Assembly: GCA_950295325.1 (NCBI GenBank)
Contig: OX485809.1
Location: 24,008,144 to 24,072,143 of the forward strand
DNA from: Polytrichum commune
Taxonomy: Eukaryota > Streptophyta > Polytrichopsida > Polytrichales > Polytrichaceae
Direction of reading: 5' to 3'
Length of the DNA: 64,000 nucleotides
In this document: positions 1-36,300 of the stretch, in pieces
How positions within the stretch are numbered: position 1 is the first letter of the stretch
Layout of the letters: the number at the start of each line of letters is the position of its first letter
Translations under genes and position numbers: made by a program
Notes under the pieces: model-generated
The model's database searches: none
Seen by the model: only the letters and a program-made list of their open reading frames with translations
What the model was told of the DNA's origin: nothing

Positions 1-75
1 TAGTTCGTATGGTCTGCACTGTTGTTCTAAGAGAGGTGGTGCATTTAAGGTTCTTCCACTAAAATGTGAACTCAC

Positions 76-974
76 CTCCTCCACTCCTCCAGTGGTGCCG
101 CATTGTTCACCACGAACTCATGTATCCATTGTCGAAGGTCGGATGGGAGATGACGCGCCCGCCCGCCACCTTCGAGGATCTCATCATACATTGATGGGTC
201 TTCTTTGTCATCCCACACTCTTCAAGTGGTGACTGTATATTCTTGCATATACTCCGTACAGAATCCCAATGCCTCTACTATGGCGTAGCCTTCAGCCATG
301 CAACCCTCTGGGCGAGTACGGTTTCGGATATACCCTTTTAGAGTCTTCAGGTACCTCTCAATAGGGTACATCCAACGTGTATGTACGGGTCCACAAATTT
401 CCACTTCCTCCACGAGATGCAGGACCAAATGGCTCATGATGTCAAAAAATGATGGCGGGAATTATTTTTCCAACATGCATAGTGCTATGGCCGCTTCACA
501 CCTCATCTCCTGTATTGTTGCAGGATCAATGGACTTAGCACACACCCTCCTGAATACACGGCTCAACATTATTATTGATGTCCGCACTTCCTTTTCCATT
601 GTGCAGCGCACACATAGTGCCAACACTTGCTGCATGAGGACATGGTAGTCGTGGGATTTCAGGCCTTTAATTTGCCCATCCACGTTTACGCGGTTCTTCA
701 ACTGTCCCACATAGTGAGTGGGGGTTCGCAGTGCACGAACTTGCTCCACAAAGACTTCACGCTCTTCTTTCGTCATAACGTACGAGGATCGAGGTAGAAT
801 CACGCTACCGGGTTTTGTTCCTGCTACGGGCCAAAGATGCGGGCGTATACCCGCCTCCTTCATGTCCAGACGAACTCCAAGTGTATCCTTCTCTCCAAAT
901 ATGGTTTTCATCACATTCTCAACGATGTTTTTCTCACAGTGCATAACATCCAACGTGTGTCGAATTAGAAGATC
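76..974 (-). pseudogene. TNP2 transposase C-terminal exon (DUF4218-like) with two in-frame stops
   Basis: Continues the transposase after a 176-bp intron; the acceptor (cattgtgcag) lies just above 974. It begins DLLIRHTLDVMHCEKN, the classic TNP2 block, and later shows HLVEEVEICGPVHTRWMYP and RYLKTLKGYIRN, typical of the DUF4218 region. Two in-frame stops interrupt it: TAA at 464-462, after ALCMLEK, where the family normally continues with FPP, and TGA at 224-222, before RVWDDKEDP, where Arg is expected. The frame on both sides stays open and conserved, so the damage looks recent. A GTGAGT donor follows position 76. A possible acceptor at 27-28 would start another exon at 26 that runs off the window. 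That intron would be only about 49 bp, so the last step is uncertain. Confidence 0.85.
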
Positions 975-1150
975 CTGCACAATGACTCGACCCAGTGAGA
1001 AATGCTCCGGAGCGAATCACAATATCACTACGTGCAATCATGTGACTGTACATGACTACGTCCACTCACATAATACTCATAAACAATATTACTATATGCA
1101 ATCATGTGACTACGTCCACTCCCTTAATTCTCATAATAAGAAACACGTAC

Positions 1151-2704
1151 TTTCCAGTATGGAAGGTCATATAGATATGTCCTCCTCTTCACTCCATATT
1201 CGTGTACGGGGTCTGTCGTCTGCCCAGTTTGGTTTCTGTAGTGTTTTTTCGTCCACTCTTCTCGCTCGTTCGCATATCGCAATTGCTCTCGACCACTCAT
1301 CCTTCTTGGCGGTGGTCTCATCTCCGGCTGCCCGTCAAAATTGGACCTTTGTCGTCTCCATTGGTGGGTCATTGGCAGTTGTCGTCTATGCCCAAGGTAA
1401 ACATTTTTTTTCAGCGCTTTGGAACGCCGTGTTGCCACGTTGGGGCCACACACGGGGCAAGCCCTATGTCCTTTTGTTACTTGCCCCGAAATCAAACCGT
1501 ACGCCGGGAAGTCATTCACCGTCCACAAAAGCATGCCATGTAGCTTAAATGTTTTCTCTTTGGGGTTTCCTTGCGATCCGTCCAAGCAATCGATCCCTTT
1601 CCAAAGCTCTTGGAGCTCCTCAATCAACGGTGCCATGTACACATCCACGTTCCTGTCCCTTACACTCTCTTTTCCTGGTATGATTAGCGCAAGCATCATG
1701 AAGAAGTTTTTGGTCACTAACCAAGGGGGGAGATTGTAGTTTAGCATGACCACGGGCCAAGTAGAGTGGCTGAGACTTTGGTTCCTAAATGGATTTACGC
1801 CATCCAGTGCAAGGCCAAGCCTAACGTTCCGTTCATCTTCCGCAAACCATGGCCACCTATTATTTACGTGGTCCCAAGCCTTCGAGTCCACCACAGACCT
1901 CATCACCTTGTCCTTACTTTTCCCACCTACATGCCACTTCATTAGGCCCGCGATCCGTGTGCAGCTGTACATCCTTCGCAAACGAGGAATCAAGGGAAAA
2001 TGTCTCAAAACTTTGACTGGAATTGTACCGGAGTTCTCTACAAAGCGCGATTTGTGGCATGTTGGGCACTCCGTTGCATTCTCCAATTCTTTCCGAAACA
2101 AACAACATCCATCTCTACACGCATGTATTGAGTTGTAGAACAACCCCAACTTCATCAACAAGCCTTTCGCCTCGTTAAATGATTTCGGTATTGTGTTGTC
2201 CTTGGGTAAAATTGTCTCCTTCAACAACTTCAACAACTCATCCACAAAGTTGTTTGGTACAGCGAATGTGGTGCAACACAATAGTATCAAGAGTGTCGAT
2301 GTGAGACGGTTCGAGGGGCTTCCCTCATACAGTGGAGTTCCAGCTTCGCATAAGAGCTTCTGGTGGTCTACCCCAGTGGGGTCCTCACTGTTCATCGTAC
2401 TCCCTCTTGTTTCCATGGGGTCATTCGTTTCTTCCCTTTCCCCCTCGCTACCTTCACTGTCCTTCGTTGTGAAACCATCCTCCCCTTCATCGTCTTCAAC
2501 CAATGCATCCCCGAGTCCCTCATGTATGGTGGCTTCGGTTTCATGTCCATCAAATTTGAGGTCATCGTACTTGCCAAAGCACTCTGCCACCATACGTAGA
2601 ACCTCAACTTCTCCTTCTTGTCCATCGTTTGTGTTAGGGTATGTCTGGCTTCTTTGCCCAATCCGGGGTGTATGGGAGAACAAGTCAATCGGGCTGTACT
2701 CGTC
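1151..2704 (-). CDS. CACTA (En/Spm) TNP2-type transposase, core exon (Transposase_21 family)
   Basis: Main catalytic exon of a TNP2/TNPD-like transposase, the protein that cuts and pastes CACTA elements. The translation has an acidic linker, then the family's conserved blocks: a C-x-x-C segment (ECPTCHKSRF), LALDGVNPF, STWPVVMLNYNLPPW and HRACPVCGP. It ends at YLYDLPYWK. A strong acceptor (tttatcactatctgcag) fixes the start at 2704 and a GTACGT donor follows 1151; both junctions are phase 0 and the exon is fully open. It joins DLLIRHTLDVMHCEK at 974, as TNP2 proteins normally read. Upstream it can splice in phase to the short first exon at 3934-4131, skipping the SET exon. Family call is confident; activity is doubtful because the next exon has stops. 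Confidence 0.9.
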
Positions 2705-3157
2705 CTGCAGATAGTGATAAATTTGTTCGCACGTTATATATTTTCGCCTTGGCAGAAACATACGACAAGGACTCATAACAATGACGATCATAGAACACGG
2801 ACTGTATATAACGTGCACATATTATATACAAATGTATAAAAACGACAAGGAGCAATCACAAGTAACATTGTATCACATGGATGAGTCATAAATTTGTGAC
2901 TTTTGTGTTACATGATTCTGTCATAAAATGAACAATGTATCTACGAGGGGCAATCATGAAACGCCGAATATAACATGAACTTGTAACATGCGTGGGGGGG
3001 GGGATGTTCATCGATTATGAAGACAAGAGTGTGTTAGGTAAAAGAAATTTCATGCACCATACAAATACAAGCATTGGATGTAAAAAATTGGTCATGTTCC
3101 ACGTACACATGTATACCGTGGTCTGGACATGTATACAAAATTTTGTCAAAACAAAAT

Positions 3158-3175
3158 ATGACTTCGTGTAGTCAT
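3158..3175. promoter_or_regulatory. ATGACT-N6-AGTCAT dyad in the TNP2 intron
   Basis: Perfect half-sites with a 6-bp spacer (ATGACTTCGTGTAGTCAT), identical in design to the many dyads in the plus-strand gene at 7301-12940. A weaker copy lies at 1052-1069 in the next TNP2 intron. This shared motif is my main reason for placing the TNP2 and accessory genes in one element. Confidence 0.55.
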
Positions 3176-3232
3176 GTTAGTGAACACATGGCACACTTTA
3201 GTCATTCCGAATGTGGACTAATGGGTGTCAGC

Positions 3233-3841
3233 CTACAATGTGGTGTGCGGGTTCAAAGAGTAATGTGCATACAACTCTTCTCCGACCATAATGTCCTTTG
3301 TGGCCATGGTGATTACATACCCCCATTCCTGTTTGTTCCAGGGTTTTGGCAACATGCGAAATTCCCACACCACATTTCCTATTTCTTTGCGTCCTATGGA
3401 ACTATTTATGAAGCCTGCGACATTCCCTTTCATTACATCTCCATCGATGTACAAGTCCGGCTCAACTTGCATCGCATATGACTTCACTCGAGGATGTGCC
3501 TTCTTCAAGGCACTGTATTCTCCCTTGGTGTATTGTGGTCCTACGAATGGAAGCAGTTCCTCTCCCTCTTTGGCGGGTTGAAGTGCAAAGAGACCCCAAC
3601 CCATGAATGGGAAGTTGGACACCCTTACTTCCCATTCTCTATTCCAGTATGAAAACTTTATAAGTTTTGGGATGGGCCCGTCACACCACTGTCCGTCATA
3701 CACGTTTGACCCCCATGACTGCAAGGCTCGTACTCTTGCAGACGCAGTGTTTGGCATTGACTGTGAAGGCATTTCATGTCCTCCTAGAAACTTTCTCAGG
3801 GATGTCTTGCAAGCAGCTTTTACAATGGGTCTCCATCGGGC
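3233..3841 (-). CDS. SET-domain (lysine methyltransferase-like) exon inside the TNP2 intron
   Basis: About 200 residues with SET hallmarks in order: MGWGLFALQPAKEGEELLPF (GxG, SAM-binding side), DLYIDGDVMKGNVAGFIN (counterpart of the RFINHS motif), GNVVWEF, then ITMATKDIMVGEELYAHYSL (GEEL plus the catalytic-type Tyr). No pre-SET or post-SET cysteine clusters are visible. The motif reads FINSS rather than FINHS. The exon has a strong acceptor (catgaattttgtag) with 3841 as first base. It joins in phase 0 to the exon at 3934-4131 across a 92-bp intron. Its own TAG at 3235-3233 ends the protein right after the SET fold. No clean phase-0 donor leads on to the transposase exon. I infer an alternative terminal exon, giving a short zinc-knuckle-SET protein instead of the transposase. 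It could be a captured host gene; the substrate is unknown. Confidence 0.75.
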   Translation of the reverse strand, partial: ARWRPIVKAACKTSLRKFLGGHEMPSQSMPNTASARVRALQSWGSNVYDGQWCDGPIPKLIKFSYWNREWEVRVSNFPFMGWGLFALQPAKEGEELLPFVGPQYTKGEYSALKKAHPRVKSYAMQVEPDLYIDGDVMKGNVAGFINSSIGRKEIGNVVWEFRMLPKPWNKQEWGYVITMATKDIMVGEELYAHYSLNPHTTL

Positions 3842-3933
3842 CTACAAAATTCATGTACACAAAGATGAAAACTCGCTCAAAGCAGGACCACCCGCTGACG
3901 CTCATTCACAAGTCGTTTCATGGAATGACTCAC

Positions 3934-4131
3934 CAAGATAGAGGCTGTAAACACGGGGTCCCTTTTTTTGCTGCGAAGATGCTTTCGAATTGTGGCTCGA
4001 TCGAGGACTTTCCCTCCTGCACACTCCATGCAGGGGCATGGGTACTTGGATAGCCGCATTGCATCTGCTTGGACCTCTTCTTCTTGCCATAACTGTAGAT
4101 GCTTCAAGCTTTCGACCTCCCCTCCTGCCAT
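3934..4131 (-). CDS. First coding exon: transposase-associated Cys motif shared by TNP2 and the SET isoform
   Basis: Begins at ATG 4131-4129 (MAGGEVESLKHLQLW) and contains the C-P-C-x-x-C element (KYPCPCMECAGGK) with a downstream H/R-rich segment (TIRKHLRSKKRD). This resembles the N-terminal transposase-associated domain of TNP2 proteins. It ends TASIL, exactly before a GTGAGT donor at 3933-3928 (phase 0). The open frame extends upstream to 4218, so an earlier start is possible. The two downstream acceptors (3841, SET; 2704, TNP2) are both phase 0, so one exon can feed two different proteins. The exon model rests on splice-site quality and frame only. Confidence 0.7.
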
Positions 4132-4255
4132 CCTGTGGTGTGCACGGCATACGCGCTGGGTCAATTTGTGATATGGGAATACCTTACAAGGAGGAAGTGC
4201 TCGTATGCACGCAATCACCTATCTATGTGGCTTAATACGGTCTAAGGGAAGTCAA

Positions 4256-4469
4256 ATATATCGAGGCAGTCATATAACACAGGGGAGTCATATAAGACAT
4301 GACAGTCATATGACACAGGGTAGTCATATGACTGGCTGTCATAGAACACACGGGGGTCATATAACACATGTCAGTCATATAAGACATGACAGTCATATGA
4401 CTGGTTGTCATAGAACACACGGGGGTCATATAACACATGTCAGTCATATAAGACATGACAGTCATCAGC
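4256..4469. repeat. GTCAT-rich array with a 69-bp tandem duplication upstream of TNP2
   Basis: Dense GTCATAT/ATGAC words just upstream of the first TNP2 coding exon. It includes two near-identical 69-bp units (4332-4400 and 4401-4469), each holding ATGACTGG[C/T]TGTCAT and AGTCATATAAGACATGAC. Such arrays in CACTA elements normally bind the element's TNPA-type protein; here the array would also sit in the promoter or 5' UTR of the transposase gene. Confidence 0.7.
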
Positions 4470-4539
4470 CCATGACTAGAAGGCGTGAAAATACTCTAAC
4501 CGAAGCCGTGAAGCAACTTGAAGGAATATTATGAAACAT

Positions 4540-5890
4540 CATGAACCCAATCCACTTTGTATGAATCTTCTTTTACAACATTCATGAACGTGTTTGATAA
4601 ATCGTGGCATATGATTGTATGATATGACCATTGTGCACAATATGTATCTTCTTGGTCATTGAGTGTACACAATTATATATGGGAGCTCACACATAGTGAG
4701 CTAAAGTTTCCTATTTTCAAAGCCGAGCAAACACCAAGCATTACTTTCATTTGATTTAATTATAGTCATGAGAAATGCATAACATTTGTTGATTTCTTAA
4801 CTAAATACGCGGGTTCTCCCAATTGTGTTCATTGTTCAATGTAGAGTAGTTCTTTGAATTTTGAAGACGTATTCCAATCTTTTCTAAACATATTTCTTTA
4901 TGATATTTTCTTTTTGATGATCCTCACCGAACCAATTATCAATCATATCTAGGGGTCCGATTAAAGAAGGGAGCCACTTAAGCCCATCTACCTTACATAC
5001 TTAGAAAAGGTGGTACCAAGGGACCATTTCAACATCAACAGTTCTTTTCGCTCCTAAATGAAAACTCGTCCTAGAAGTGCAAAGCAGACTCAATGAACAC
5101 CGACCTGAAGGATGGGTTTCATTTGTTAACAAAACACTTGAATATTAAGAAGGTACCAAATACAATCTCAAAGGGTGAATAGGTATTATATTAAGCAATA
5201 ATTGACCACTATTATGTCCGTATAATGTCAAGTGATCCAATGTGGATGAAGGGGATTTAGTTAAAAAAAGGTCCCCGTTAAGGTTGAGGGTCGATTTATT
5301 CCAACTAGACTCCATAAGATTAATTTAGGGACTTTGATGTGTAATTTGATGTCAATTTCATAATGGATGAGTTTACATAGACACCACGAATCCCTCGTCA
5401 AGTTCATGCCTTATAAAGTAAATTAGGGAGAAGAGCTAGAATCCCCTTACAAAAAATGAATATTTGACCTACTGGACAATTCTTCATTTGATAGAGATAA
5501 ACTTATATTGGTATAAAAGATCACATGGATAAGTGTGGACCTATGATATATACCGTAAATATATCGTAATCGATTCCAGGGGAGTCATATACCCCGGTTA
5601 TAAGTAAGTGTCATGAAGCCCATATATACTTTTTTGGTAAAAGTAATTTCAAATGTTGAGAATGTAAAAGTAATTTCAAATGTTGAGAATGTAAAAGTAA
5701 TTTCAAATGTTGAGGATGTAAAAGTAAAGAGAATGTTGGGCTTTAATTTGGTTGATGGATGAACTCATCCATCCACGACAATGTTTGATGATTTTTTCAT
5801 AGCCCAATAATTGTTACTATAAAAAAATGTAAAATTTCACTATTTACGTGCAAATCAAAGTTGTTGATCTATTTTAAAGAGGTCTATTTT
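4540..5890. other. AT-rich non-coding stretch with a 27-bp x3 tandem repeat
   Basis: No coding signal seen. A 27-bp unit (AAAGTAATTTCAAATGTTGA core) is repeated three times at about 5639-5720. This is the left part of the spacer between the divergent TNP2 and accessory genes. It could be element-internal spacer or a later insertion; I cannot tell which. Confidence 0.5.
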
Positions 5891-5897
5891 TATAATT

Positions 5898-5925
5898 TAC
5901 CTCTCTCTCTCTCTCTCCCTCCCTC

Positions 5926-5981
<56 letters not shown>

Positions 5982-6290
5982 TCTCTCTCTCCCTCCCTCC
6001 CCCTCCCCCTCTCTCTCCCTCCCTCCCTCTCTCTCTGTCCCTCCCCCCCTCCCTGTCCCTGCCTCGCCCTCCTCGTCCCCTCCCCCGCACGCGCTCCCTC
6101 GGCCGCAGTCCCTCACTCGTGCCTCCTACCCTCCCCCGCCCTCCTTCCCTCCCCCGCCCTCCATCCCTCGTGCCTCCTACCCTCCCCCGCCCTCCTTCCC
6201 TCCCCCGCCCTCCATCCCTCGCTCTCCTCCTCCCCCGCCCTCCCTCCCTCCCCCGCCCTCCATCCCCTCGCTCTCCTCCTCCCTCATCTG
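5898..6290. repeat. CT/CCCTC polypyrimidine microsatellite and minisatellite
   Basis: A long (CT)n block (about 5901-6040) passes into CCCTC/CCCGCCCTCC repeats with about 50-bp higher-order units at 6120-6270. Open frames on both strands here are low-complexity Ser/Pro/Leu or Arg/Glu/Gly and are not genes. Long CT tracts are common in plant 5' UTRs and core promoters, so it may lie in the promoter of the gene starting at 7301. Confidence 0.85.
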
Positions 6291-6299
6291 TCACAACTT

Positions 6300-7300
6300 T
6301 GAGGATTCAGATTTAATTTATAGCTGATTCAGGTGAGAGGCAGATTCAGTGTCGAAGACATGGTTTAGGGATCGCGAAATTTGATGTGGTTTAGGGTGGC
6401 AGATTCTTTGGATTTCGGTGGCAGACTCGAAGGATTTGGCACCTGCCTCGAAATCTCCGCAGCCTCGATACATTTGGCTCATTCAGGTGAGGTGGTGGGT
6501 GATAGGGTTTTGTGAGAGTTGTGTTGGGTGAGGTGGTGGGTGGTGGGTGCCGAGAGGGAGTGGGTTTCGAGAGAGGGAGTGGATTTTGCGGCAGCAGGTG
6601 GGTTTCGGGAGACAGGTATACATTGGCCATTTCTGAGTTTAAATCGACACCAGATTCGGTGTCGGAGCTGCTGGCTGGTGGGTGCAGCTTCCTCCACCCC
6701 CCGACTTCGGTGGTGGGTGCACCTCGGCACCACATTTGAATTTATTTCGGGAGGTAACGTGGTAGCAGGGTTTTCAGAGGCAGACCTCTCTCCTAAACTT
6801 TTCAGGGTTTTCCCTCTCTCCACCACTTCCACTCACCCTCCAAGGTTGTGCACTCTCCCATCTCCAAGGAGAGTAATTTTAGTTTAAATATTTCATAATA
6901 CTTCAAAAACTTCAAAACTTGTGCTTTGAAAGACGACATCTAAATTGAAAAATGATGAACCCTATTTCGGACACAAAATCGGGTCTCTATGTATTATTCT
7001 ACATGTCACGAATAAAAGTTATTCTAATCTGGTCACTTATCTTAGTCAAACACCTAAATATCATGCTAAAACCCCGCACACACAATCGAATACCTGTGGA
7101 GAAAGTTGACCTCACCTATATTCGCAACTCCCTTGGCATTTGTTGAGTAGGAGCTGGTTGTTCAATCCCTTATCCGCTAACCTGTAGCATCCACAAAACA
7201 TCGATGAGGACTGGTAGGGAATACAAAACAAACATCAAAAATGTATACAACCTGTTTGTATTCTAGTGAACACTAATGTGGATTATGGTTTTGCAGAATC
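6300..7300 (+). other. GC-rich leader region; candidate 5' UTR exon and intron of the accessory gene
   Basis: GC-rich and repetitive DNA (AGGTGGTGGGTG words) with two good donors, GATTCAG|GTGAGAGG near 6330 and CATTCAG|GTGAGGTG near 6485. AT-rich intron-like sequence follows, then a strong acceptor (ggttttgcag) four bases before the ATG at 7301. A non-coding first exon spliced to 7297 is the simplest reading, but no TATA box or transcript start can be fixed by eye. Confidence 0.4.
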
Positions 7301-8386
7301 ATGGAGGAAGAAATTCCGGAGTATGAGAGGATACGGAAGAAAAACATCGAGGCCAACAACCAGAAGCTGAGGGAACTTGGTCTGACACCAATTGGGACCT
7401 CTCATTTCAAGAGGCCTGAGGACCCCGGGTATGTAACCCCAAACCCTAATACAACGGACCTGCTACCGCTAGCTTTGCTTATGAAGTTTGAAACTTTTAT
7501 GAATCTTTGTAGTCATAAATTGCATACAACTTGCTGAAGACATGATTGTTTGCAGTCATAGTTCATAGTATTATGACTCCCTGTAGTCATACTTTAAGGT
7601 CTGTATGACACAGTCCAGTCACATTTTTGTGAGTGTGAGTCTTCCCAGTCCTAAACATATTGTAACTTCTTCGAACATCCATGTTGTTGTGCATCATATG
7701 TGGCTTCTATTGGTTGTCTATGATCGTGCATTTATGATCATGTGTATGAACAATGTTTTTGTTTGACATCACATAATGAATGAATAATTCCATACTACCC
7801 AACAGTCCAGAGTTACCAAATTTGAAAGGGAATTGAAACCATAATGCATAGGCTAAATATTTCGGGTGTCATATTGAGTAACAATGTAGTGAGGGCTAAC
7901 TAAGCTGCCCACATGCATGATTGGTTGGTGCCCGTGATGATAATGAAAGTTTGAATCATTGGAACTCAATTATTACTAGCTAGAGCACGTGTATGTGTTT
8001 GTTACATATTCCTTTCGTAAGATGAATTCACAAAGGTTCAAACTCAATTTTATGTGTTGACAATGTGTATGTGTACGTGTATGTGTTGTGTATGTGTATG
8101 TGTATGTGTTGACAACATGTATGTGTGGTGTATGTGTTGTGTATGTGTTGACAATGTGTATGTGTTGTCAACTCTACAATAGATTCATAACATTCAATTT
8201 CAATTTTTATTTTCAACCATCCTCAATCCATGTTGTGAACAATTTCATGATTATGACTCCTCCCAGTCAAAAAAATGTGGAGACCACATGACTCATTTGA
8301 GTCATGTTTCAGCATTGGCAGTCGTTTACCTTACAATTTTTGTGAGATGTAATGTCCGTCTAATAACTCACGCTCGTACTGAACAG

Positions 8387-8753
8387 TGTGGTTCCCGCGA
8401 CTTCCACCAAAAATGCCGAAATGAACAATGTACTTGTCAATTTGATAACAAAAATAGCTAATATGCCTGATGGCATGCAAGTGGAAGTTTTTCGCACAAT
8501 TGCTAGTTTCCCGGCAATTACATTGCCGGTTTTGGAAATGACTTCGAATGAGGTTGCGCGTGTTTTTGAGAGCAGCCGTGGCATGCCTGTGGGAGAGCCG
8601 GGCCCATCTGTAGAGCAGGGTGGTGGCTGGGGTGTGACCACTAGAGCGAAAGGAAAAAAACAACTTCCTGAAACGGACCTCGATGATGACGAGGACGAAG
8701 AGGACGAAGAGGAGACTTCCGAGGACGAGCAGCCCAGACCAAGGAGGCGGAAG
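8387..8753 (+). CDS. Accessory-gene exon 2: helical region followed by an acidic tract
   Basis: Opens after acceptor cgtactgaacag and completes the split codon of exon 1 (GG|T). The first half (VNLITKIANMPDGMQVEVFR) matches the exon at 57401 of the second element (LVANLPDERVEEVFQGVARL), which confirms that it is coding. The second half is DDDEDEEDEEETSEDEQ followed by basic PRRRK, a likely disordered charged region with a nuclear-localisation-like end. The donor AAG|GTAAAA follows 8753. Confidence 0.7.
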
Positions 8754-8932
8754 GTAAAAACATAAATCTCCGTAGTTTCTTGCACTTGGAAACGCATTTA
8801 GTCGTTCGCGTTACTTGGGTCTCATTCCAAACACATATAGAAAAAATATTGATAACATATGTCCGTATATGCTTATCACTCCAGGAGGTCATAATCTGAC
8901 CCCGAACATGATACTTAGTGCAGTCATGTAAT

Positions 8933-8968
8933 ATGACTATAGGTAGTCATATGACTTTGTCAAGTCAT
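8933..8968. promoter_or_regulatory. Two abutting ATGACT-N6-AGTCAT dyads in accessory intron 2
   Basis: 8933-8950 (spacer ATAGGT) and 8951-8968 (spacer TTGTCA) abut exactly. Further single copies occur at 7573, 8253 (AGTCAA) and 8288 in intron 1. Confidence 0.55.
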
Positions 8969-9121
8969 ATTATACAATAATATCCTTCCACTCGGTCATG
9001 TAGTGTGACTCGATGCAATCATGTAACTTACTACAGTCATGTAGGGTGACTCCACGGTTTCATATAGCATACTGTACGACTGGGTGTGTAGGGTAATGCA
9101 AATGAACCCAGGTCATGACCG

Positions 9122-9940
9122 TTGCAATCTAGCGGAAAGAAGGGCAAGGCGGTCGAGGAGGAGGATATCCTGCTGTCCCAAGACATGCAAGATACTCTCC
9201 GGGCTTGTGAGATGGACGCCGACGAAGCATCGGCGGACAGCGAGGAGGCAGACATAGGCGTAGGGCATCGTAACGAGCTCCTTGACGAGCTGGAGCTCCG
9301 GGAAGTAAGCATTTTGCGGCGTATGGCTCAAAAAGGAGCCGATCCGACGGAACTTCGGGAGAAGGTGCGTTGCCTTGGCCGGACGGCAGAGGTTGAAGGC
9401 AGCGACGGAAGCGCGCGGCTTCGACAGTCGAAGTTGAAGAACCTTAGGCGGTCCTTGAAGAAGAGTGACGAGCTGCACAGTTCCAGTGGTGGTCAGCGTT
9501 TGTGGGTCGAGGTCGACGAGGCCGGGTGCCCGACAGGGATACACAGGCCTGACTGGCTGACGCGACTACGCGGGTACTCTCGCGACCTCGACTGGAGCGT
9601 CGACAACTTCAGGGCACACCCACGGCCCTTGTTGTTGGCAATTAAAGACAAGATGGCCACACAGTTCGAGTACCGTGGTGGACTCGGAGATGTGCCTGAA
9701 GCTATTTTTTTCCAGATTTTGCGGCAGCAGATGCGCACTCGCAGGTCGAACATGAAAAAACTCATAGAGAGTTGTGGCCCGCTCCCACCGTATGTGAAGA
9801 AGGCGCACGTCGACAACTTCAAGAGGTTAATTGCCCGGACGGACAAAATCGCGGAAGCCACGCGCATGAAAGCCGCACGGCAGACCGTGCAGACCTTGTC
9901 GTATTCTGGAAGGTCCGAAGGGGAGGTGCGCTCTAGACTG
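9122..9940 (+). CDS. Accessory-gene exon 3: Transposase_24 (Ptta/En/Spm)-like core
   Basis: About 270 residues. The conserved part runs from WVEVDEAGCPTGIHRPDWLT through RDLDWSVDNFRAHPR and FQILRQQMRTRRSNMKKLIE to FKRLIARTDKIAEATRMKAA. The same order recurs in the second element (TVDVDMKGHPCGQNKPLWMT, DVDFSVDNYHRH, NQLKTKRY, LIVEERKIKEAEKLKENRAQ). The layout, ending in a W/F-x-x-L block and an Asn/Arg-rich segment, is that of the plant TNPA/Ptta Transposase_24 family, which binds subterminal repeats. The match is by pattern and is distant. The last codon precedes a perfect GTAAGT donor at 9941. The first residues are unsure because no acceptor near 9122 fits the frame of the previous exon. 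Confidence 0.7.
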
Positions 9941-10083
9941 GTAAGTGATTTTGTGTGCAAGTCATTCAAACATAAATATGTGACAACCTGCAGTCATATA
10001 ATTCAGTCATATAATGAATGATATCACTTTACATAGTCACACCGGAAGTCGTATGACCATAGATAGTCACACGCTGCCTGAAT

Positions 10084-10264
10084 ATGACTTCACATAGTCA
10101 TATTTAGAGACATATGACTTCACCTAGTCATTTGTTGAGTAATATGACTTCACCTAGTCATATTGTGAGTCATATGACTTCACCTAGCCATACGTTGAGT
10201 AATATGACTTCAGCTAGTCATATTCTAAGTAATATGACTTTCCATAGTCATATTTAGTATGTTT
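10084..10264. repeat. 30-bp x6 tandem array of dyads in accessory intron 3
   Basis: Six units start every 30 bp (TGACTT at 10085, 10115, 10145, 10175, 10205 and 10235). Each holds ATGACTTCACCTAGTCAT or a one- or two-base variant. The array ends just before the acceptor of exon 4. Confidence 0.8.
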
Positions 10265-10302
10265 ACGTATTTTTCATGGATCCACAGTTGCTCCTTTCAC
10301 AG

Positions 10303-10617
10303 GCCGCAGATTTAGAGCGGCCCCCCACGCAGCTGGAGGTGGAAACCGAGCTAGCGACACCCGGGAAATCAGGACGGGGCCGGTCATCGTCATCCAGAGG
10401 GCCACTCCCAAATGCAAGAGCGGGAGATAGAGCCCTCTTTGTTACGCGGACAAAGCTGCACGACTTCCAAGATAGCATGAAGGGGGAGATGGAAGATGTG
10501 AAGGCTATGATGAAGCAGCTTCTGCTGGAGGTGCAGAAGCGAACGACGGCCACGGACATGGAACCGCCAGCCACGGCGGAAGCGGGAGTCGACGTGATCC
10601 AAGTAACCGCCGAAAAG
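10303..10617 (+). CDS. Accessory-gene exon 4: Arg/Ser-rich segment and predicted coiled coil
   Basis: A strong acceptor (tgctcctttcacag) precedes AADLERPPTQLEVETEL, equivalent to AIELERTLTRQELDLSM at 59559 in the second element, so the boundary is conserved. A heptad-like helix (FQDSMKGEMEDVKAMMKQLL) is a likely oligomerisation segment, as in TNPA proteins that dimerise on DNA. The donor AAG|GTTGCG follows 10617. 105 codons, phase 0 at both ends. Confidence 0.7.
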
Positions 10618-10748
10618 GTTGCGTCTGTATACCCTCTAGTACTCCAGTCGAATACATGTATGAAACACCTTTGCTTCAGCAATGTTGTATGTCTTGCATT
10701 AGGATCGTTCACTAATACACGCCTCATGTGGATCATTAGAACATGCAG

Positions 10749-10952
10749 GCAACTGGGAGGTCGGCGGAATCCGGGCATACTGGGTCAACCGCGGCATCGG
10801 AGCCCCTGCGTAACACCCTAGCAGATATGGGTTGCCAACCCATCATTGAAAAGAAGAAACCCATAGCCAAGAAGAGGAAGGGCGAAGCGGAGAAGCTATT
10901 GGCGGAACACGATGCACGGCCTACCCGGCGTGCAATGGCTCGACAGAAAGAG
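10749..10952 (+). CDS. Accessory-gene exon 5: Lys/Arg-rich linker
   Basis: 68 codons between a cag acceptor and a GAG|GTTGGC donor, phase 0 at both ends. Contains KKKPIAKKRKGEAEKL, a strong nuclear-localisation-like run. There is no domain match; it corresponds in position and composition to the basic exon at 60202-60603. Confidence 0.6.
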
Positions 10953-11067
10953 GTTGGCATTCATGTCATATGCACATTATACTTGTGTGATAGTTATACT
11001 TACGTGTAAGCTTTGTGTCTTTGATGTGGCCTCAACATTGGACAGTCATATGATTATATCACATGAT

Positions 11068-11154
11068 ATGACTGAAGGCAGTCATATCACATGACTCTAG
11101 GCAGTCATGTTATACGCCTATAGGCGGTCATAGTATATGACTCAATGCAGTCAT
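11068..11154. promoter_or_regulatory. Three dyads in accessory intron 5
   Basis: ATGACT-N6-AGTCAT at 11068 (GAAGGC), 11091 (CTAGGC) and 11137 (CAATGC), irregularly spaced, with other loose GTCAT words around them. Confidence 0.55.
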
Positions 11155-11268
11155 AAACATGACAAGTGGCAGTCATATAACATGACATGAGGTTATCACA
11201 AGCAGTCGTGTATGACAGGGCCGAGTCATACTCTAACGCTAGAGTGTTATTGGGTCGTGGCCTCCCAG

Positions 11269-12063
11269 GTTATGACGGTTGGAACGAGTGAAGATCAACC
11301 CGTGGACTTGCAGGAGGACGAGGACCATGAGGCGCCTGCGACGAAGAGGCCGGCAAAACGGGCACATAAAGAAGGCAGTCCACAGAAGAAGAAAAAGAAG
11401 GCTGGCAATGCTCCAAAGATTTAGCCGTTACCCCCGAAGGTCCCCTCGGTAAGAGTGTCGGACTCCGGGCGTAGGAAAATTATAGTGTTGAATGTTGTAG
11501 GACTTCTTTGCGATATCAGACCTCTGCACGATAGGAGAGAGTAGGGCCCGGATCTAGTCATCCACCACGCAAAGGACCTGAATGTAAAAAAAAAAAAAAA
11601 AAAAACCGACTGCGACAAATTTTTGTCGATGTTGTTCTCTAATTTTGATGTCGGGATATGGTCCCCCGTAGAGCAGAACGTACTAGAGGTTGTAGGCGCA
11701 TTTCTTGCATCGGGAACGACAGCTCAATGGAGCTTTCTGTGGGGGAGGACTTACCCCCTCCAGAACCCAATAAGAGACCTCCGCAATCTATTTGATATGA
11801 TTCCGGACCCCATGCACGGCTCAACACGGTGTCTCCAAATCGATTGGGATACAACGGCGACGGCGCGTTCCCCCCCCTCAAATGTCCTAAACTTTCCGCG
11901 CTGGGATCCCCTAAACCCCAACGATGACTTCCTGGGCAGAATCTGCGGGCCATTCGAAGGATTGGCCCGCAAGCAATCCGACATTGAATATTGCTTGGCG
12001 TATCTGACTAAGGAGGTCCATCTAGCGTCGGTACCTGCGAACCTGGTAGGTTCATCAACACAG
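11269..12063 (+). pseudogene. FCP1/NIF-type HAD phosphatase-like module, catalytically degenerate, two amber stops
   Basis: One exon in a single frame from acceptor cgtggcctcccag to donor ACACAG|GTAAGC. It reads: acidic/Lys-rich start, TAG 11422, RRKIIVLNVVGLLCDIRP, TAG 11542, DLVIHHAKDLNV, six Lys from a 20-A run, then FLSMLFSNFDVGIWSPVEQN, WSFLWGRT, CLQIDWDTTATARSPPSNVL and LEGLA-like GPFEGLARKQSDIEY. This follows plant FCP1-homology proteins block by block (VLDLNGLL; FLSFCFERFEVGVWS; W/D segment; LLDDSPYKALRNPP; YLEGLA). The nucleophile motif DxDx/DLNG is NVVG here, so both key Asp/Asn positions are lost; DDSP is DWDT. Known FCP1-like enzymes dephosphorylate the RNA polymerase II tail; this copy could only bind. 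The second element lacks it. Domain call is by eye. Confidence 0.7.
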
Positions 12064-12217
12064 GTAAGCTGCTCTTGGATATTTTTTGTTTCTATTTGGT
12101 TCTAACTCCAATCGCAAACAAGGAAAATGCTGATAACACATGTCCGCATAGGTATGTCACTCCACGAAGCAATATGAGGACCTTAGGCGAATGTGTTACT
12201 TTTTGTGGTCATTCTAA

Positions 12218-12390
12218 TATGACTATGTCCAGTCATATGACTATGGTCAGTCATAGGCAATATGACTATGTCCAGTCATATGACTATGGTCAGTCATAGG
12301 CAATATGACTATGTTCAGTCACATGAATATGGCTAGTCATGGGTTATATGACTATGTCCAGTCATATGACTATGTTCAGTTATAGGTCGC
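12218..12390. repeat. 43-bp x4 tandem array of dyads in accessory intron 6
   Basis: Units start at 12218, 12261, 12304 and 12347, exactly 43 bp apart, and most hold two back-to-back 18-bp dyads (spacers ATGTCC and ATGGTC). The unit is unrelated to the 30-bp unit of intron 3 except for the dyad. Confidence 0.8.
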
Positions 12391-12559
12391 AATTATATTA
12401 CTCATTGTTGTCATATCTGATGACTGCGGTACGGTATATGAGTATATCCTATCATATTATGCAATCATGGCCTAGTGTGAGGTCATATATTGAGTATTGA
12501 AGCTCCAGTAACTCCACGCGGATTGTTTTGATTGTTGATAATTATTTTTTCTGCTGCAG

Positions 12560-12940
12560 ACACAAGCAGAAGAGGTCACCGCCGTATTGTCGGAGACGGC
12601 TAATGCGATGGTGGAGGACGCACCCTTGCCGTTGGCCACGGGGTCCAATGTCGCATTGTTTGACCTGGACGAGGAGAACAAGGCCAAGGCGAACGTAGTG
12701 GCGCAAGGCATCATCGTGAGCCTTGCAGGAGGCTCACTCCACGGGCGCCTCATTGAGGAGGGCAACGTATCAGTTAGCGTGTCCTCGATCGAGCCGGGAG
12801 CAGAGTCCGTGTTGCTGTACGAGGGCAACAACGACGACGATCCTCCGATGTTGCGTCTGGGCGATGCACTGAAGTCCATCACCAAGTGGCCAGTGGAAGC
12901 ACTGAAGGCTATCCCGCTGGAACCTCAACAAGCCACTTAG
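12560..12940 (+). CDS. Accessory-gene last exon: DUF8039-like C-terminal domain
   Basis: Starts after acceptor ttttttctgctgcag in phase 0 and ends at TAG 12938-12940. The C-terminal 90 residues (NVVAQGIIVSLAGGSLHGRL, EEGNVSVSVSSIEPGAESVL, DDDPPMLRLGDALKSITKWP) align with 60709-61032 (VAGIGKVVNLEGGKLHGVTI, DLDDPPITKMGQAVGSFILW). The pattern LHG..I.EG.V.V.V...DDPP...G.A......WP matches the DUF8039 domain often found at the end of plant transposon-associated proteins. The role is unknown. Conservation between two diverged copies suggests past selection. Confidence 0.75.
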   Translation, partial: TQAEEVTAVLSETANAMVEDAPLPLATGSNVALFDLDEENKAKANVVAQGIIVSLAGGSLHGRLIEEGNVSVSVSSIEPGAESVLLYEGNNDDDPPMLRLGDALKSITKWPVEALKAIPLEPQQAT

Positions 12941-13084
12941 ATTTCGGTAGTTTACGCATTTAGGGGTCATATAGGAAAGATGAACACATTTGGATATGCT
13001 TGGAGACATGGACTACATAAAGTCGTTCAAGTTATTGAAATTTATGTACTCAATTTGTGTGCTCAATTTCTTACTTGGCTCAAT

Positions 13085-13759
13085 CATGTAGCGCATGACT
13101 TGAATATGTCGTCATTGCTTGGGATGTGGCACGAAATGTGACTGACAATCAGAATTACAAGTAATACGAATCTAACTCAATACAGTTATCACAACGCACA
13201 AAGAACTACGCAATGTGACTCTCCATCTACGCGAATATCACTCCATCATGTCACATTGTGCAGAACATGTTACTAAGAATATGACTACAAAACGTTATAT
13301 AACAATGTCATCCCCGCAAAAAATGTGACTAACGCCCCAAAAAACATGACTACAAGCAGTCAAAAAACTAGCAGTCACATTCCACGTGGCCTGCCACGTC
13401 GGCAAAATTATGACGCATAGAAGTCATATTACACGTCAGCAGAGAACATGATCACATGGAGTCACATTCCACGTCGGTTTGGTATTTTTTCTGCCCGGGC
13501 AGGTCAAAAAAGGGCACTGACTCCAAGGCTAGTCAAGGTATGTCCCACGTGCAGTGGGGATCGTAGAAACTGTCCTTTTATACGCCTCCACAACCGTATA
13601 TATTCATATGACTCATGTCCGAAGCGACTTGTCGGTAATGACTAGACCCAGTCACCGCGCGCGTCATCCTCATCCGGAGCCTCGTCAGTCATATTTTGGG
13701 ATTTTATGACTTAAGGCAGTCATAAATTTCAGTCACAAAATACCCAATCTGTTGTAGTG
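13085..13759 (+). mobile_element. Right subterminal region and CACTA terminus of the first CACTA element
   Basis: Non-coding DNA after the accessory gene stop, with further dyads (13346, 13409, 13638, 13706). It ends ...CTGTTGTAGTG at 13759; read inward on the minus strand this is CACTACAACAG, a standard CACTA terminal inverted repeat. The 3-bp target duplication would be GAG (13760-13762). The matching left terminus is not in the window; I infer it lies left of position 1. Confidence 0.75.
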
Positions 13760-14068
13760 GAGGTAAATAACTAAATCCCCTAGACTTAGACATCACAACT
13801 TCTTACTTGTTACTTCTCATCAAACGAATTTCCATTTGCATAAAAAATCAGCATAACAAGTCCTATCTCTTTTGCTTAGCCACTTTCATAACATTATTAA
13901 GCAGTTATGGATCTTGCGAATATAACCATGGGATGTTGGGAGCTCAATTTGAATTTAAGTCTCCCCGCATAGGGTTTGTACATCCCATGGTTATATTCTC
14001 AAGGCTTACATAATGAACGCACATTGGTTAGTAATGTTATGTCTATAAAGGCGTCAACCATATGCTAA

Positions 14069-22703: not shown

Positions 22704-23394
22704 CAGTGCTCAAAATTGAAGCCCTCATATGAATTTCATTTTGAAGGGCTCTGAAATTTCAGCATTGCAATTGAAGGGCATATCTAAATCTAGGACGTCA
22801 ATGGAAAATTTTCAAAGAAATATAAAACTTATATTAAAATTATGCGCTTCGGACGGGCTCCGCGTTTCAAGCTCGTTATCCTAACCATATCCTCTGCTTT
22901 ACTAGGGAGCCCTAATGGGGGCAGGCCCATCGATCCCCTGCTTTACCAGGGAGCCCTAATGGGGGCAGGCCCATCGATCCCCGGCTTTTCCCTATTGCTC
23001 CATGATTTGCATGGTACATGCTTCTAGTTGCACCGAAAGGATTTGTATAAGTTGCACCAGACTGAATCAGAAGCTTGACTGGTCTAACTGATCGGAAGCT
23101 TCAAAGTTTAAACCACCGGAACTTGGAAGCTGAATCATTTGGGAATGGGAATTCTCAAGTTTTGAACTAATTCCCATCTGGATATGAGATCTAGAGCCCA
23201 AAGTTAGATAGCCAAAGTTAAACAACTACTTGAGATGATGAACAATACTTGAAGGGTACTATTTATCCAGCACTTCAAGTGACGGGAGCACTTAGACATG
23301 AGGATTATGTTTTGAAGGGTTGTTTTCCTTGAGGTATTTTTTGAAGTCCCAAAACCCATTTGAAGGGCACTGAAGACTTCAATTTTGAGCACTT
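22704..23394 (-). mobile_element. Non-autonomous hAT element A, 691 bp, 8-bp TSD
   Basis: Starts CAGTGCTCAAAATTGAAG and ends with the inverse (CTTCAATTTTGAGCACTT, last base mutated), flanked by the perfect 8-bp duplication ACTAGCTT at 22696-22703 and 23395-23402. Subterminal arms match element B in the opposite orientation. It holds a 44-bp tandem duplication at 22894-22981. No coding capacity. Confidence 0.85.
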
Positions 23395-23926
23395 ACTAGC
23401 TTTGTCCATTTTCTCTATTGATAGGTTTTTTTTTGCATGTGATGGAAAGCATGGCACATTTATAATGTCAGTTCCTCCATATCCAGTATCTGCAATCCAT
23501 AAGGTTGAGGCATCTATAACCTCTCAAATAAGAGAGTTTGCATCTGTTTAGGAGGACTAGGTAATTATTTTTCTTGCAAAGAGAAACAAATTCTATTGAG
23601 AATGCTATTTTTTTACATTTTAAAACTTTTTACAAGAATAGGGAAATTGTTACAAATTTTGAAGCAGTAATGTTTAGGGTAACACAAAGTCGATCTATAG
23701 GTTAACCCATAACCGCTCATCTAAATGTTGATGCTTAGCTACAACAATTGTCAAAACTCTTATGAGGGCAATCAATCACAAGCAGCCACCACATCAACCT
23801 TAACTCCGTTTGCCTAAAAAATATAGATCTCATTTATGTCAACATTACATGACCCTAGTGAGTGGTTAAACGGACATGGTTAATTATGGATGCCTCAACC
23901 TTATAAGACATCATGATTCTTCATTA

Positions 23927-24264
23927 GGGCCACTTCACACACAAGCCAAGGGCCGTGACCATGTAGTTGTGAGGGTCCTTGATTCTCATCCAAAGACCGT
24001 AGCATTGCCATGATTTGCAGGAATTTGTGTCAAGCCTACGTGCTAGAGGTAGGCATGGTGCAAATTCAAGCAGACCATGAAACATTGTTTGTAGTCTACC
24101 ATGTAGGAATCCAAGTAGACTTTTCATCCATGATATATTCTCTGGGCCCTTAGGCCATCAACTTCTAGTTTGAAGTGAACTTGGACAATCTCCACCTTTT
24201 CGACCAATGAGAGATCTTTGGATGCAATGGTCACGGGCCTTCACTCTTGTAGGTGAAGTGGCCC
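23927..24264. mobile_element. PIF/Harbinger-type MITE, 338 bp, TSD TTA
   Basis: GGGCCACTTCACAC at the left, GTGAAGTGGCCC at the right, flanked by TTA (23924-23926, 24265-24267). Same family as 14069-14589; it also shares GGCCGTGACCATG with 26416-26816. Confidence 0.8.
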
Positions 24265-24605
24265 TTATTTTCATAAGGCATCACATGAAACAAATGTGTA
24301 CTAGTTGGTTCCTCATAAAATTATTTACCGTGGAGTTTTGAAAATGGAAACTTGACAAGGATCCGGTTGTTTTGCTTGTATTTGTATTCTTGTGTACGAA
24401 TATTTAAGGAACCAAGTTTATGGGTTGTGAGAGAGAAATAAACTATATCCTACGGTCATTGAGGCATTGTGTGTGTGGTTGGGGGGGGGGGGGAGTCCTT
24501 ATAAAAATCATGCCATTCATAAAAATAACCAAGAAAATGTCTACATACACTTGGATCCAGTTGTTGTCATCCCAACGGATCCTTGTCCAGAAAAATTCTC
24601 CCCAT

Positions 24606-25695
24606 CAGTGCTCAAAATTGAAGTCTTCAGTGCCCTTCAAATGGGTTTTGGGACTTCAAAAAATACCTCAAGGAAAACAACCCTTCAAAACATAATCCTC
24701 ATGTCTAAGTGCTCCCTTCACTTGAAGGGCTCAATAAATAATGCCCTTCAAGTATTGTTCATCATCTCAAGTAGCCGTTTAATTCCAGTTGTCTAACTTT
24801 GGGCTCCAGATCTCATATCCAGATGGGAATTGTATGTTGATAGGTTTGGTTGTGAGAAAGTGCATACTTTGCACTATGACTCTATGCCCGGGTGTGATGT
24901 AGGGGGGCTCATTGGAGGATTGCATCACCCTTGGTAGACTATACGTCCAAAAGGTTATTGACTCACTAAATGATCGCTTCCCCGACTTGCCCATTTTTAA
25001 TGCGGCCAGGCTTTTTAGCCCAAAACACTATCCCATGGATGCATTGGATCGAGGCACTTTAACTGAGCAATGGTTGAACCGGTTGGTGACACATTTCAAG
25101 TGGAGCTCTGTTCTTGTTGATCAAGCCAATGCGGAGTTGCTCGAATTTGTGGAGATGTTACCTTCAGCTTGTCAACACCGAAGTATGCATGAAGATTGCG
25201 TTTTTGTGGCCGTGACCGAGAGTTTAAGATCAATTGGCCAACCCTAATGTCGCTATGGCAAGCCATACTTGTGATCCCTACTAGCACTGTTGTTTGTGAG
25301 CGTGGTTTTTCAAAGCAGAATTGGGTTAAGAGCGAAAGGAGAACATGCCTAAACCTTGACACACTTGATGCATTGATGAGGGTTAGCCTAAACAGTTTGG
25401 GAGTTGAATTCATGGATTGGAATGGCATTTTTGACACTTGGAAAACCGCTACAGTAACCAACAAGCGTAGGGCATTGTCACTTCAAGAGGTGGAGTTAGA
25501 TAGTTGATTCTCCATTATTTCACTGTACTAGAAGCATGTACCATGCAAATCATGCATAATTATAATATAAGTTTTATGTTTATTTGAAAATTTTCCATTG
25601 ACGTCCTAGATTTAGATGTGCCCTTCAATTGCAATGTTGAAATTTCAGAGCCCTTCAAAATAAAATTTATATGAGGGCTTCAATTTTGAGCACTG
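24606..25695 (+). mobile_element. hAT element B, 1090 bp, 8-bp TSD, with transposase remnant
   Basis: Starts CAGTGCTCAAAATTGAAG, ends CTTCAATTTTGAGCACTG, flanked by the perfect 8-bp duplication CTCCCCAT (24598-24605 and 25696-25703). CAGTG ends and 8-bp duplications are hAT hallmarks. It is an internally deleted copy that keeps only the transposase 3' end. Confidence 0.9.
24912..25506 (+). pseudogene. hAT transposase C-terminal fragment (hATC dimerisation), frameshifted
   Basis: The first frame (24912-25247) gives VIDSLNDRFPDLPIFNAARL and SPKHYP; the second (25196-25506) gives INWPTLMSLWQAILVIPTST, VVCERGFSKQNWVKSERR and LDALMRVSLNSL. This is the typical hATC dimerisation block of plant/ZNF862-like hAT transposases. 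The switch of frame between about 25180 and 25200 means at least one indel. The N-terminal zinc finger and most of the catalytic domain are missing, so it is non-functional, but it ties element B and its relative A to the hAT superfamily. Confidence 0.85.
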
Positions 25696-33304: not shown

Positions 33305-36300
33305 CTAGGGGCGGAAGTCTATTTCTAGCCCAGGACACATTGCTTCTAGCTTCATAATCCCATCCGTAGTCAAAGATATTTTCCCACAATCCCAAATCGT
33401 GCAGTGACTCAAAAGTTGACACTGACTCAAATCGGGCACTTCTTGCAATTGGTGGCACTCCCATATGCTAAGCCGTTCCAACGCAGTCATGGGCATAGTG
33501 CTGATCAACCTCTCCAACCTCCGACAATCGTTAATTCTCAAGGCTTTCAATTCCGGGAACAAACTCAGATCTGGTAGCTCTCTGCATGCCCCAAGTCCCC
33601 AAAGTGTCAAAGTGTGTAGCGCCATTCCAGTTCCAATTCGAGGTTGGTCGACCCAAAGAGTGTCCGAGGACTTTGATATGCTCACCCCTGCCCATACCAC
33701 AATATGTGGGCAGGCCATCACTTCCAATTCTTCTAGTCTTGTCAAGTTGTGCATATCAGGTAATGTCTCCAAGCTATTGCAATTTGATATGGATATACTT
33801 CGTAAGGAAATCAAGTTGCCCAAACATGACACATCCTTAAAGCGGCATCTATGTATGTGTACCCTTTGTAATCTTGCTAGATTCAAGAGGTTGGGCATCA
33901 TTTCAATGCCCTCCCCCGAATTTTGTATCTCTAGATCTTCCAAGCTCACCACATCGCTAAAAGCTGGTGGTCCCCTCCAATTCCACACATGGAGGGTGAC
34001 TAATTTGTTCAACTTGTGAGGATTAAAGCCACCTTGTAGTGCTCGATGCTCAATTCTTAATGTTTGCAAACCTATTAGTTCACTTAAGCCTGAAACTCCT
34101 TTAAGTGAAGAGGAGTATCTCAAATCCAATCTTTGTAAGTTTGTGAGCTTGTGCATGTCCGGCAACGCAACAAGGCTATAGCACTGTGAGGCTATAAACT
34201 CCACCAAGGCCACTAAGTTGCCTAACCCCGGCACCACTACGATTGACTTACATCCATCAATGTTCAACTTCCGTAAACGTGTGAGTTGTTGTAGGTTGGG
34301 CAACTCGTTAAGGTTCGAACACAAGTAAAAAGAAAGTTCCTCCAAGGCCACTAAGTTGCCTAACCCCGGCACCGCTACAATTGACTTACATCCATCAATG
34401 TTCAACTTCCGTAAACGTGTGAGTTGTTGTAGGTTGGGCAACTCGTTAAGCTTCCAACACTTGTAAAAAGAAAGTTCCTCCAAGGCCACTAAGTTGCCTA
34501 ACCCCGGCACCGCTACAATTGAATAACAGGTGTTAAAGTTCAACTTCCGTAAACGTGTGAGTTGTTGTAGGTTGGGCAACTCGTTAAGGTTCGAACAATA
34601 GTCAAAAGAAAGTTCCTCCAAGGCAAATAAGTCACCCACACCAAGGCAAGACCGTAATGAATCACACCCAACAAGGTGCAAGTATCTCAAGTTGTAATGC
34701 TTTGGAGTAACGCCTGATATGGCCTTTTCATTAAAAAAACTTTCAAAGCCATTTTTACGTTTAACGCCCGACCGATTCAAAAATGCCAATTGATTATTTT
34801 TGGGTACTCCTAGAATATTCTGTCTCCAAGGACTCTCAATCGGAAAATCTCTTTTGGCATAACGAAGGCAACGCAAATTTTGTGGTATTGAAATCAAATT
34901 GATGGTGCCACCACATATCAATATTCGTAGTTCCTTCATGTCGGAAAAGGCAAGGTCAATAAGAGGATCTGAATGTGTGATAACCAAAGTTTGAAGAGAA
35001 TGATGCAATGCCTGCACACAACCATCCATGTCACATATATTTTAGTTTGACGTTAAATAATTATTCTATCTAGCATAAAGCTTAGATAAACATTAATCGC
35101 TATTGACATGTATTATTTAACTCTAATATACTATTACCATCAATTTCCTTGCATTGGAAGTTCAACTTCATTTCTAAGATCTAGGTAGCCCCCCCCCCCT
35201 TTCACAACACAAATGGATGCATGTTTAGGCCAAGGTTTCAATCTTCATATGGGCCTTTATTGCTTTTTGGCTTTCACCAAAAGGGACTACCTTTGACAAG
35301 ATGCAATAACACTTGTCCAATAGCCATGCTCTACAAAGCCGTTTATGGTTCACATATGAGCTTGCAGCTGTGATCAAAGATCCCGGCATGTGGACCCCTA
35401 ATTGATACCTAAATGACGTACATGGGTCACTATGATATTAAACCCCTTATATACAACAAGTTTATAAAGAAAAATAAATATCCACGTACTAACCGCATGG
35501 TAGAAAACGGACTCGTGTATTCATACTAAGCTTTTGAATTTAATGTTATAAATGCCTCCACTACATATACAATATAACAAATCATTAACGTAATAGGACT
35601 TTATTACATATAAAATCCACTTTCGATTTCCAATGAGAAAGTCACTAAACATTTTTTCATGCATAGCATGTAACTCAACACAATAATTTACCCACAATCC
35701 AAAGAGCAAAATTCAAGGGAGCCCATGAGCTCTCCAAGAGCCTTCAATTTGTAAAGCCTAGAACCCAAATGCCAATCTTAACAAGAATGAACATGGTCAT
35801 TATTGAGGACAATTACCATATGACAACAATGGATGAGAATGTGAATTGCTGAAACTAACCAATCTATTGTCAATTTTGTTGTTTAAACCATAGGGCCCCC
35901 TCTTGTACATCCACCTTTACTTCACATTTATTGATATTAGCTTTTCCAAATGTACACACCAAAGATAAATAATAACTCTCCCATATGTATACCATGTACG
36001 ATAATGCCTCAAATAATAACTCATCTTACACTCACGTTAGTTTGTACATGGTACAAAGAGTCCACCCCCTAGGTCAAAGATGAAGCATCCATCAATTATG
36101 TTGGATTCACACCAACCTTTGCTTGGTGTCGTCTTTGATTTTTCTAGCTTACAAGAGGTGATGAAGATTTTGAAGTGTTTGTGAAGTTGAATAGATTTCA
36201 ATGGCTTACAACCAATGATGTTAGATAGTTTGACAATCAAGCTCATATATTTAGTTGTTCAAACATTGATTTGTCAATAATCCATGGCTCACATATTTAG

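Follow-up and report, generated by a model that had tools for sequence, protein, structure and literature searches.

A SET-domain exon in the first intron of a CACTA-type transposase gene of the moss Polytrichum commune, with a first exon predicted to serve both products

Multiple proteins from one transcription unit are an established feature of CACTA transposons. In maize Spm, the tnpA and tnpD transcripts are described as arising by alternative splicing, with the tnpD ORF located inside intron 1, and alternatively spliced transcripts are likewise described for soybean Tgmt (PMC2613891, in part). The element considered here resembles En/Spm and Tgmt in its CACTA ends, its tnp2 transposase and the coding of more than one protein per transcription unit through alternative splicing (PMC2613891, in part). 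It differs from them in that what they make beside the transposase is a DNA-binding protein (TNPA or similar) and not a SET protein, and in that splicing of the moss element is a prediction.

SET domains have also been found in association with transposases. The primate protein SETMAR has a SET domain joined to a transposase, but this gene belongs to the host and arose by fusion with a defunct mariner copy; it is not a transposon carrying SET. DNA transposons with a SET gene are described from Phytophthora, namely HarbingerS and MuDR elements (PMC12730594, in part), and Helentron-type elements carry a SET ORF without introns that has been compared with Clr4 (PMC4067079, in part). The available portions of the former source mention no common first exon in HarbingerS or SET-MuDR. 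These two belong to other transposase superfamilies in oomycete hosts, whereas Helentron-type elements, which share with the moss element a SET-domain ORF in a mobile element, are rolling-circle Rep/helicase elements (PMC4067079, in part). The moss element has none of these transposases or replicases, but tnp2 with CACTA ends. The host of the Helentron-type SET elements we take to be Phytophthora. Literature searches confined to open-licence papers turned up no description of a CACTA element, or of any plant transposon, with a SET exon. SET-carrying transposons are already known from oomycete Harbinger and MuDR elements and from Helentrons.

The element and its two predicted products

The window (the whole stretch of 64,000 nucleotides analysed) contains most of a CACTA element of 15,510 bp, whose ends were placed by comparison with two other copies at window coordinates -1750 and 13759, the left 1,750 bp falling outside the window. 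Its left and right ends both read CACTACAACAGATTGGGTATTTTGTGACT, and its terminal inverted repeats, identical over 29 bp, begin CACTACAACAG. A 3-bp target-site duplication flanks the window element (GAG) and the C2 copy (GGA); the third copy compared shows none. Together with the tnp2-type transposase, these ends place the element in the CACTA (En/Spm) superfamily. Its features are as follows.

1..13759, no strand: CACTA element, part inside the window, ends by comparison with two copies
13731..13759, minus strand: 29-bp terminal inverted repeat at the right end, with the same sequence as its left counterpart
13760..13762, no strand: target-site duplication GAG, matching the GAG left of the element
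8367..12940, plus strand: second, divergent gene of the element, approximate extent; its ORF 9119-10018 recurs
4229..4489, no strand: TATGACT/AGTCATA-type repeats upstream of the first exon
3934..4131, minus strand: first exon (EX1), common to both predicted products; 66 codons from ATG, CPCxxC...H motif, Transpos_assoc-like
3842..3933, minus strand: intron between EX1 and SET, 92 nt, GTGAGT...TTGTAG
3233..3841, minus strand: SET exon, 202 codons and stop; PF00856, E 1.2e-9; profile match to MLL1, ASH1L and EZH2 SET domains
2705..3933, minus strand: intron for joining EX1 to tnp2, holding the SET exon; phase-0 donor and acceptor, with a short intron in the same place in SET-less relatives
1151..2704, minus strand: tnp2 core exon (Transposase_21), PF02992, E 1.6e-73
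222..974, minus strand: next transposase stretch, with DUF4218 at 222-461 (PF13960, E 1.6e-31)

An earlier note on this DNA had proposed that EX1 ends in phase 0 at a GTGAGT donor facing two acceptors of the same phase, one opening a complete SET-like domain with its own stop and the other the tnp2 core. Its coordinates, frames and motifs all proved correct. EX1 ends atcttg/GTGAGT, the SET acceptor reads ttttgtag/GCCCGA at 3841 and the tnp2 acceptor atctgcag/GACGAG at 2704, each in phase 0. The SET frame of 202 residues ends at TAG (3235-3233) and scores 39 bits against a PF00856 cut-off of 22.4, and the frame opened at 2704 holds the Transposase_21 match listed above. The 3' end of the tnp2 core exon, at a GTACGT donor (1151), is our own reading.

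Assignment of EX1 to a domain family is less direct. In the window, Transpos_assoc (PF13963) reaches 21.3 bits, below its cut-off of 27.7, and U-box reaches 22.8, slightly above that score and just over its own cut-off of 21.4. We take the U-box match to be due to chance, because in the first exons of four relatives (L018, L022, L029 and L027, from families B, C and E and the L027 type) Transpos_assoc is the top match, below cut-off, and U-box is weaker or absent.

The window copy is probably not fully autonomous, since an in-frame stop at 464-462 interrupts its transposase; the frame is open at this point in six other copies. The ORF 9119-10018 of the divergent gene was found by tblastn in L009, L012, L026 and, weakly, L028. 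A Pfam search of that gene gave no convincing match, and an identification by eye as Transposase_24/TNPA-type was dropped on that account; the gene is left unnamed. A gene stretch elsewhere in the window (58799-59458, plus strand) is 36% identical to this ORF and probably comes from another related transposon. Further TATGACT/AGTCATA-type arrays lie between the ORFs of both element genes (3155-3214, 10020-10260 and 12216-12429), and similar words occur close to the element's ends; the arrays may be sites to which a protein of the element binds. A long GA/CT-rich low-complexity stretch (5870-6300), the length of which varies among copies, lies between the two divergent genes. Elsewhere in the window are a TIR-NB-ARC-LRR resistance-type gene (33305-38156, minus strand; TIR 37584-38156, E 4.5e-31; NB-ARC 36365-37528, E 3e-35; LRR 33308-35041) and, at 22704-25695, long inverted repeats in two pairs, one nested in the other, with arms of 142 and 225 nt that are 93-95% complementary.

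Recurrence in the genome and preservation of the splice sites

The earlier note had made its proposal depend on other copies carrying the SET exon, and many were found in the source genome (408 Mb, 64 contigs), several diverged families among them. The SET query gave 150 scored matches of 206 candidates; among the 28 that ranked best, 18 are free of stops. A search with tnp2 yielded 83 rows, a lower bound with 82 of 733 candidates scored. In 62 of these 83, SET lies upstream on the strand of tnp2 at a distance of no more than 3.5 kb; in 21 it does not, and 18 of the 21 form one lineage. For EX1, 150 of 405 candidates were scored, and 99 of the 150 are followed by SET on their own strand at no more than 2.5 kb, while none of the 150 has it upstream or on the opposite strand. 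Random placement would yield 0.07 such pairs, so the pairing of EX1 with SET exceeds chance. The gap is intron-sized, at 91-127 nt, in 73 of the 99 pairs. No SET match lies near the other 51 EX1 matches; 18 of these stand beside SET-less tnp2 rows, and one locus (L031) was read among the remaining 33. Conversely, EX1 was detected within 1.5 kb of 78 of the 95 SET matches of at least 150 aa. Two of the 17 for which it was not detected are of the L027 type, and inspection by eye shows a diverged first exon there.

Junctions were read at 21 SET-bearing loci, window included, of the 150 SET matches. With the window type as family A, SET identity to the window is 57-62% in family B (51% in one truncated B copy), 46-49% in families C and D, and 36% over the aligned part in L027, whose tnp2 pieces are 28-44% identical. 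The order EX1-SET-tnp2 is the same in the sampled families. A phase-0 GT donor of EX1 is present in 21 of 21 SET-bearing loci, a phase-0 AG acceptor of SET in 19 of 21, and a phase-0 AG acceptor of tnp2 in all 20 loci where tnp2 is present.

The plan of first exon, SET and tnp2 is also that of the L027 type (contig C3, 52941001-52951000, and also C5:1795602), a CACTA-type tnp2 gene that has diverged far. Its first exon is longer and has a terminal CPCNDC...H...H stretch, followed by GAG/GTCAGT, a 147-nt intron and the SET exon; the latter is also longer, a 326-residue frame that is proline-rich ahead of SET. In L019 and L020 the intron between EX1 and SET has been expanded by short-repeat copies from about 88 to 256 nt with the splice sites undisturbed.

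Several observations count against the joining of EX1 to SET. The SET acceptor is gone in L021 and the start of SET is rearranged in L026, the two exceptions among the acceptors above; aged copies have a frameshift (L006) or a stop (L016) in EX1; L023 and L024 lack a Met at the aligned EX1 start; and no poly(A) signal common to the loci was found after the SET stop. Two further aged copies, L004 and L025, have a stop inside SET. An in-frame fusion of SET to tnp2, for which a donor shortly ahead of the SET stop would be used, was rejected as a general mechanism, because a GT in the last codons is present in family B and some C and D copies and absent from the window family and L027.

Selection, families without SET and the competing explanations

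It is probable, in our judgement, that one promoter and first exon serve two alternative acceptors and so would give either an EX1-SET or an EX1-tnp2 protein. Alternative splicing of EX1 is predicted and strongly implied. The leading competitor holds that SET is a separate nested gene with its own promoter and ATG, its phase match with EX1 being unused. Many database relatives are indeed entered as free-standing ORFs, about 180-190 aa long, that have a Met of their own, and in families B and C an in-frame Met follows 10-14 codons past the acceptor. In the window family, by contrast, the first in-frame Met of the SET frame is codon 24, and the preserved splice sites of the intron and its recurrent size also count against a separate gene.

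The codons between acceptor and first Met bear on the same question. Over the 14 such codons in family B, pS is 0.52-0.61 and pN 0.08-0.11; over 10 codons, C versus D gives pS 0.58-0.62 and pN 0.20-0.24, and window versus B gives pS 0.75-0.89 and pN 0.18-0.24. Apparent constraint on these few sites, as in B, speaks for translation from upstream, that is, from EX1, and against a start at the internal Met. Between window or B and C or D there is little contrast (pN 0.49-0.74, with pS near saturation), and constraint that is weak or absent at this distance counts against the EX1-SET reading. Between L017 and L018, identity is 70% in the intron, 83% in SET and 62% in the 300 nt past the SET stop; for the most distant pairs, the intron, aligned with gaps, reaches an identity no lower than that of SET, and the comparison is uninformative. 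On balance we regard a separate nested gene as unlikely.

A smaller chance attaches to the idea that SET is translated only when retained or included as a cassette exon, its stop then reducing transposase output, with the SET protein itself of little matter. Inclusion of SET does place a stop before tnp2, but this explanation has no need of protein-level purifying selection, the GxG motif and the GxEL...Y tyrosine included. Such selection acts on SET between subfamilies, as judged by pairwise dN/dS, which the earlier note had named as a check and which runs from 0.15 to 0.38: 0.15-0.17 for L017 versus other B copies, 0.30-0.38 for L016 and L018 versus L019 and L020, and 0.23-0.29 for C versus D. 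Inside young groups the values spread from 0 to about 1.6 on few changes, a scatter expected for copies decaying after insertion.

Families without SET in the same genome serve as a natural control. In L029 and L030 (family E, 2 of the 18 rows of the SET-less lineage having been read) and in L031 (family F), EX1 is separated from tnp2 by a short phase-0 intron, 204 nt long in L029, and tblastn found no credible SET match at any of the three. Since these loci retain EX1, intron and tnp2, EX1 is to be read as part of the transposase and SET as an added module. It is accordingly very improbable that EX1 is an exon of SET alone and that tnp2 begins at another place, a view favoured by the greater closeness of EX1 to SET than to tnp2 in SET-bearing loci and contradicted also by the resemblance of EX1 to a transposase-associated domain. 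The earlier note had spoken of a captured methyltransferase, a term that needs qualifying. When the tnp2 tree is rooted on L027, which of the SET-bearing families is the most distant, the SET-less families nest inside SET-bearing ones, their grouping with B having 56% support, and the SET tree has the same family order with some nodes weakly supported. Provisionally, with branch support this weak, the capture may be old, with SET lost later in the families that lack it.

A host SET gene independent of the transposon, which would have inserted into or around it, can be dismissed: nothing was found for it, chance nesting is contradicted by the reappearance of SET at this position and on this strand in 62 of 83 tnp2 rows, and SET lies inside the terminal repeats of the three copies compared, so the exon is a module of the CACTA element, as the earlier note had supposed.

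The SET protein and its possible role

Membership in the SET fold is indicated by PF00856 matches over cut-off in the window, L018, L019, L023 and L027, and in a profile search of solved structures the SET domains of MLL1 (E 2.6e-8), ASH1L (E 1.7e-7) and EZH2 (E 1.5e-6) rank high. G81 and G83 (GxG), the motif-III asparagine N146 and the tyrosine Y194 of the C-terminal motif (GxEL...Y) are invariant in 14 SET sequences; Y194 falls outside the 90% list in a 76-row alignment that includes fragments. We take Y194 to be the catalytic tyrosine. The canonical, histone-type NHxC is replaced by NSS in the 14 sequences, which counts against the proposed enzyme; NHxC is likewise not known from PR-domain enzymes. 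An AlphaFold2 model from 21 sequences was too poor for use (mean pLDDT 38.4).

Related proteins in public assemblies (52 matches in one search, 85 in another) are known as proteins alone. No fused EX1-SET protein occurs among 39 database matches, of which the best coverage is 74%; this is weak evidence against fusion, because most of the matched proteins appear to be ORFs predicted on DNA. A 452-aa protein of the fern Adiantum nelumboides (P0066) has a related SET domain, 33% identical over half of the query, and an N-terminal part in which Pfam found no match; it may be another mobile element. No related loci were found in the viral contigs and prokaryote genomes scanned.

The preferred mechanism, two products from one first exon, can be set out in steps. 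EX1, a Cys/His-rich Transpos_assoc-like domain, ends in phase 0; use of the near acceptor would yield an EX1-SET protein of about 268 aa with its own stop, and use of the far acceptor would skip SET and yield EX1-tnp2, the transposase. Both splices would occur and SET would be an active enzyme. EX1 would bring both proteins to the element's own repeats, where SET might alter chromatin or a silencing factor to the element's advantage. A transposon that counters its own epigenetic silencing is known in the VANC system of Vandal MULEs (PMC12730594, in part). The likeness to the moss element would lie in this possible purpose. VANC itself is not known to be a SET protein.

The published SET cases that we found come from oomycetes and other superfamilies, while here a plant CACTA lineage has kept a SET exon within intron 1 of the transposase gene, in phase, across deep divergence and under selection. 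A more far-reaching interpretation, which we offer tentatively and think rather less likely than the splicing scheme, is that of an ancient plant CACTA lineage with a self-targeted chromatin modifier: a common N-terminal domain would take transposase or SET to the element's own repeat arrays, and splice choice would switch between opening or protecting chromatin and jumping. The fern protein may mean that such SET modules are widespread in seedless plants. With SET-bearing and SET-less families side by side in one genome, it becomes directly testable whether a predicted, transposon-encoded methyltransferase of histone type counters host silencing.
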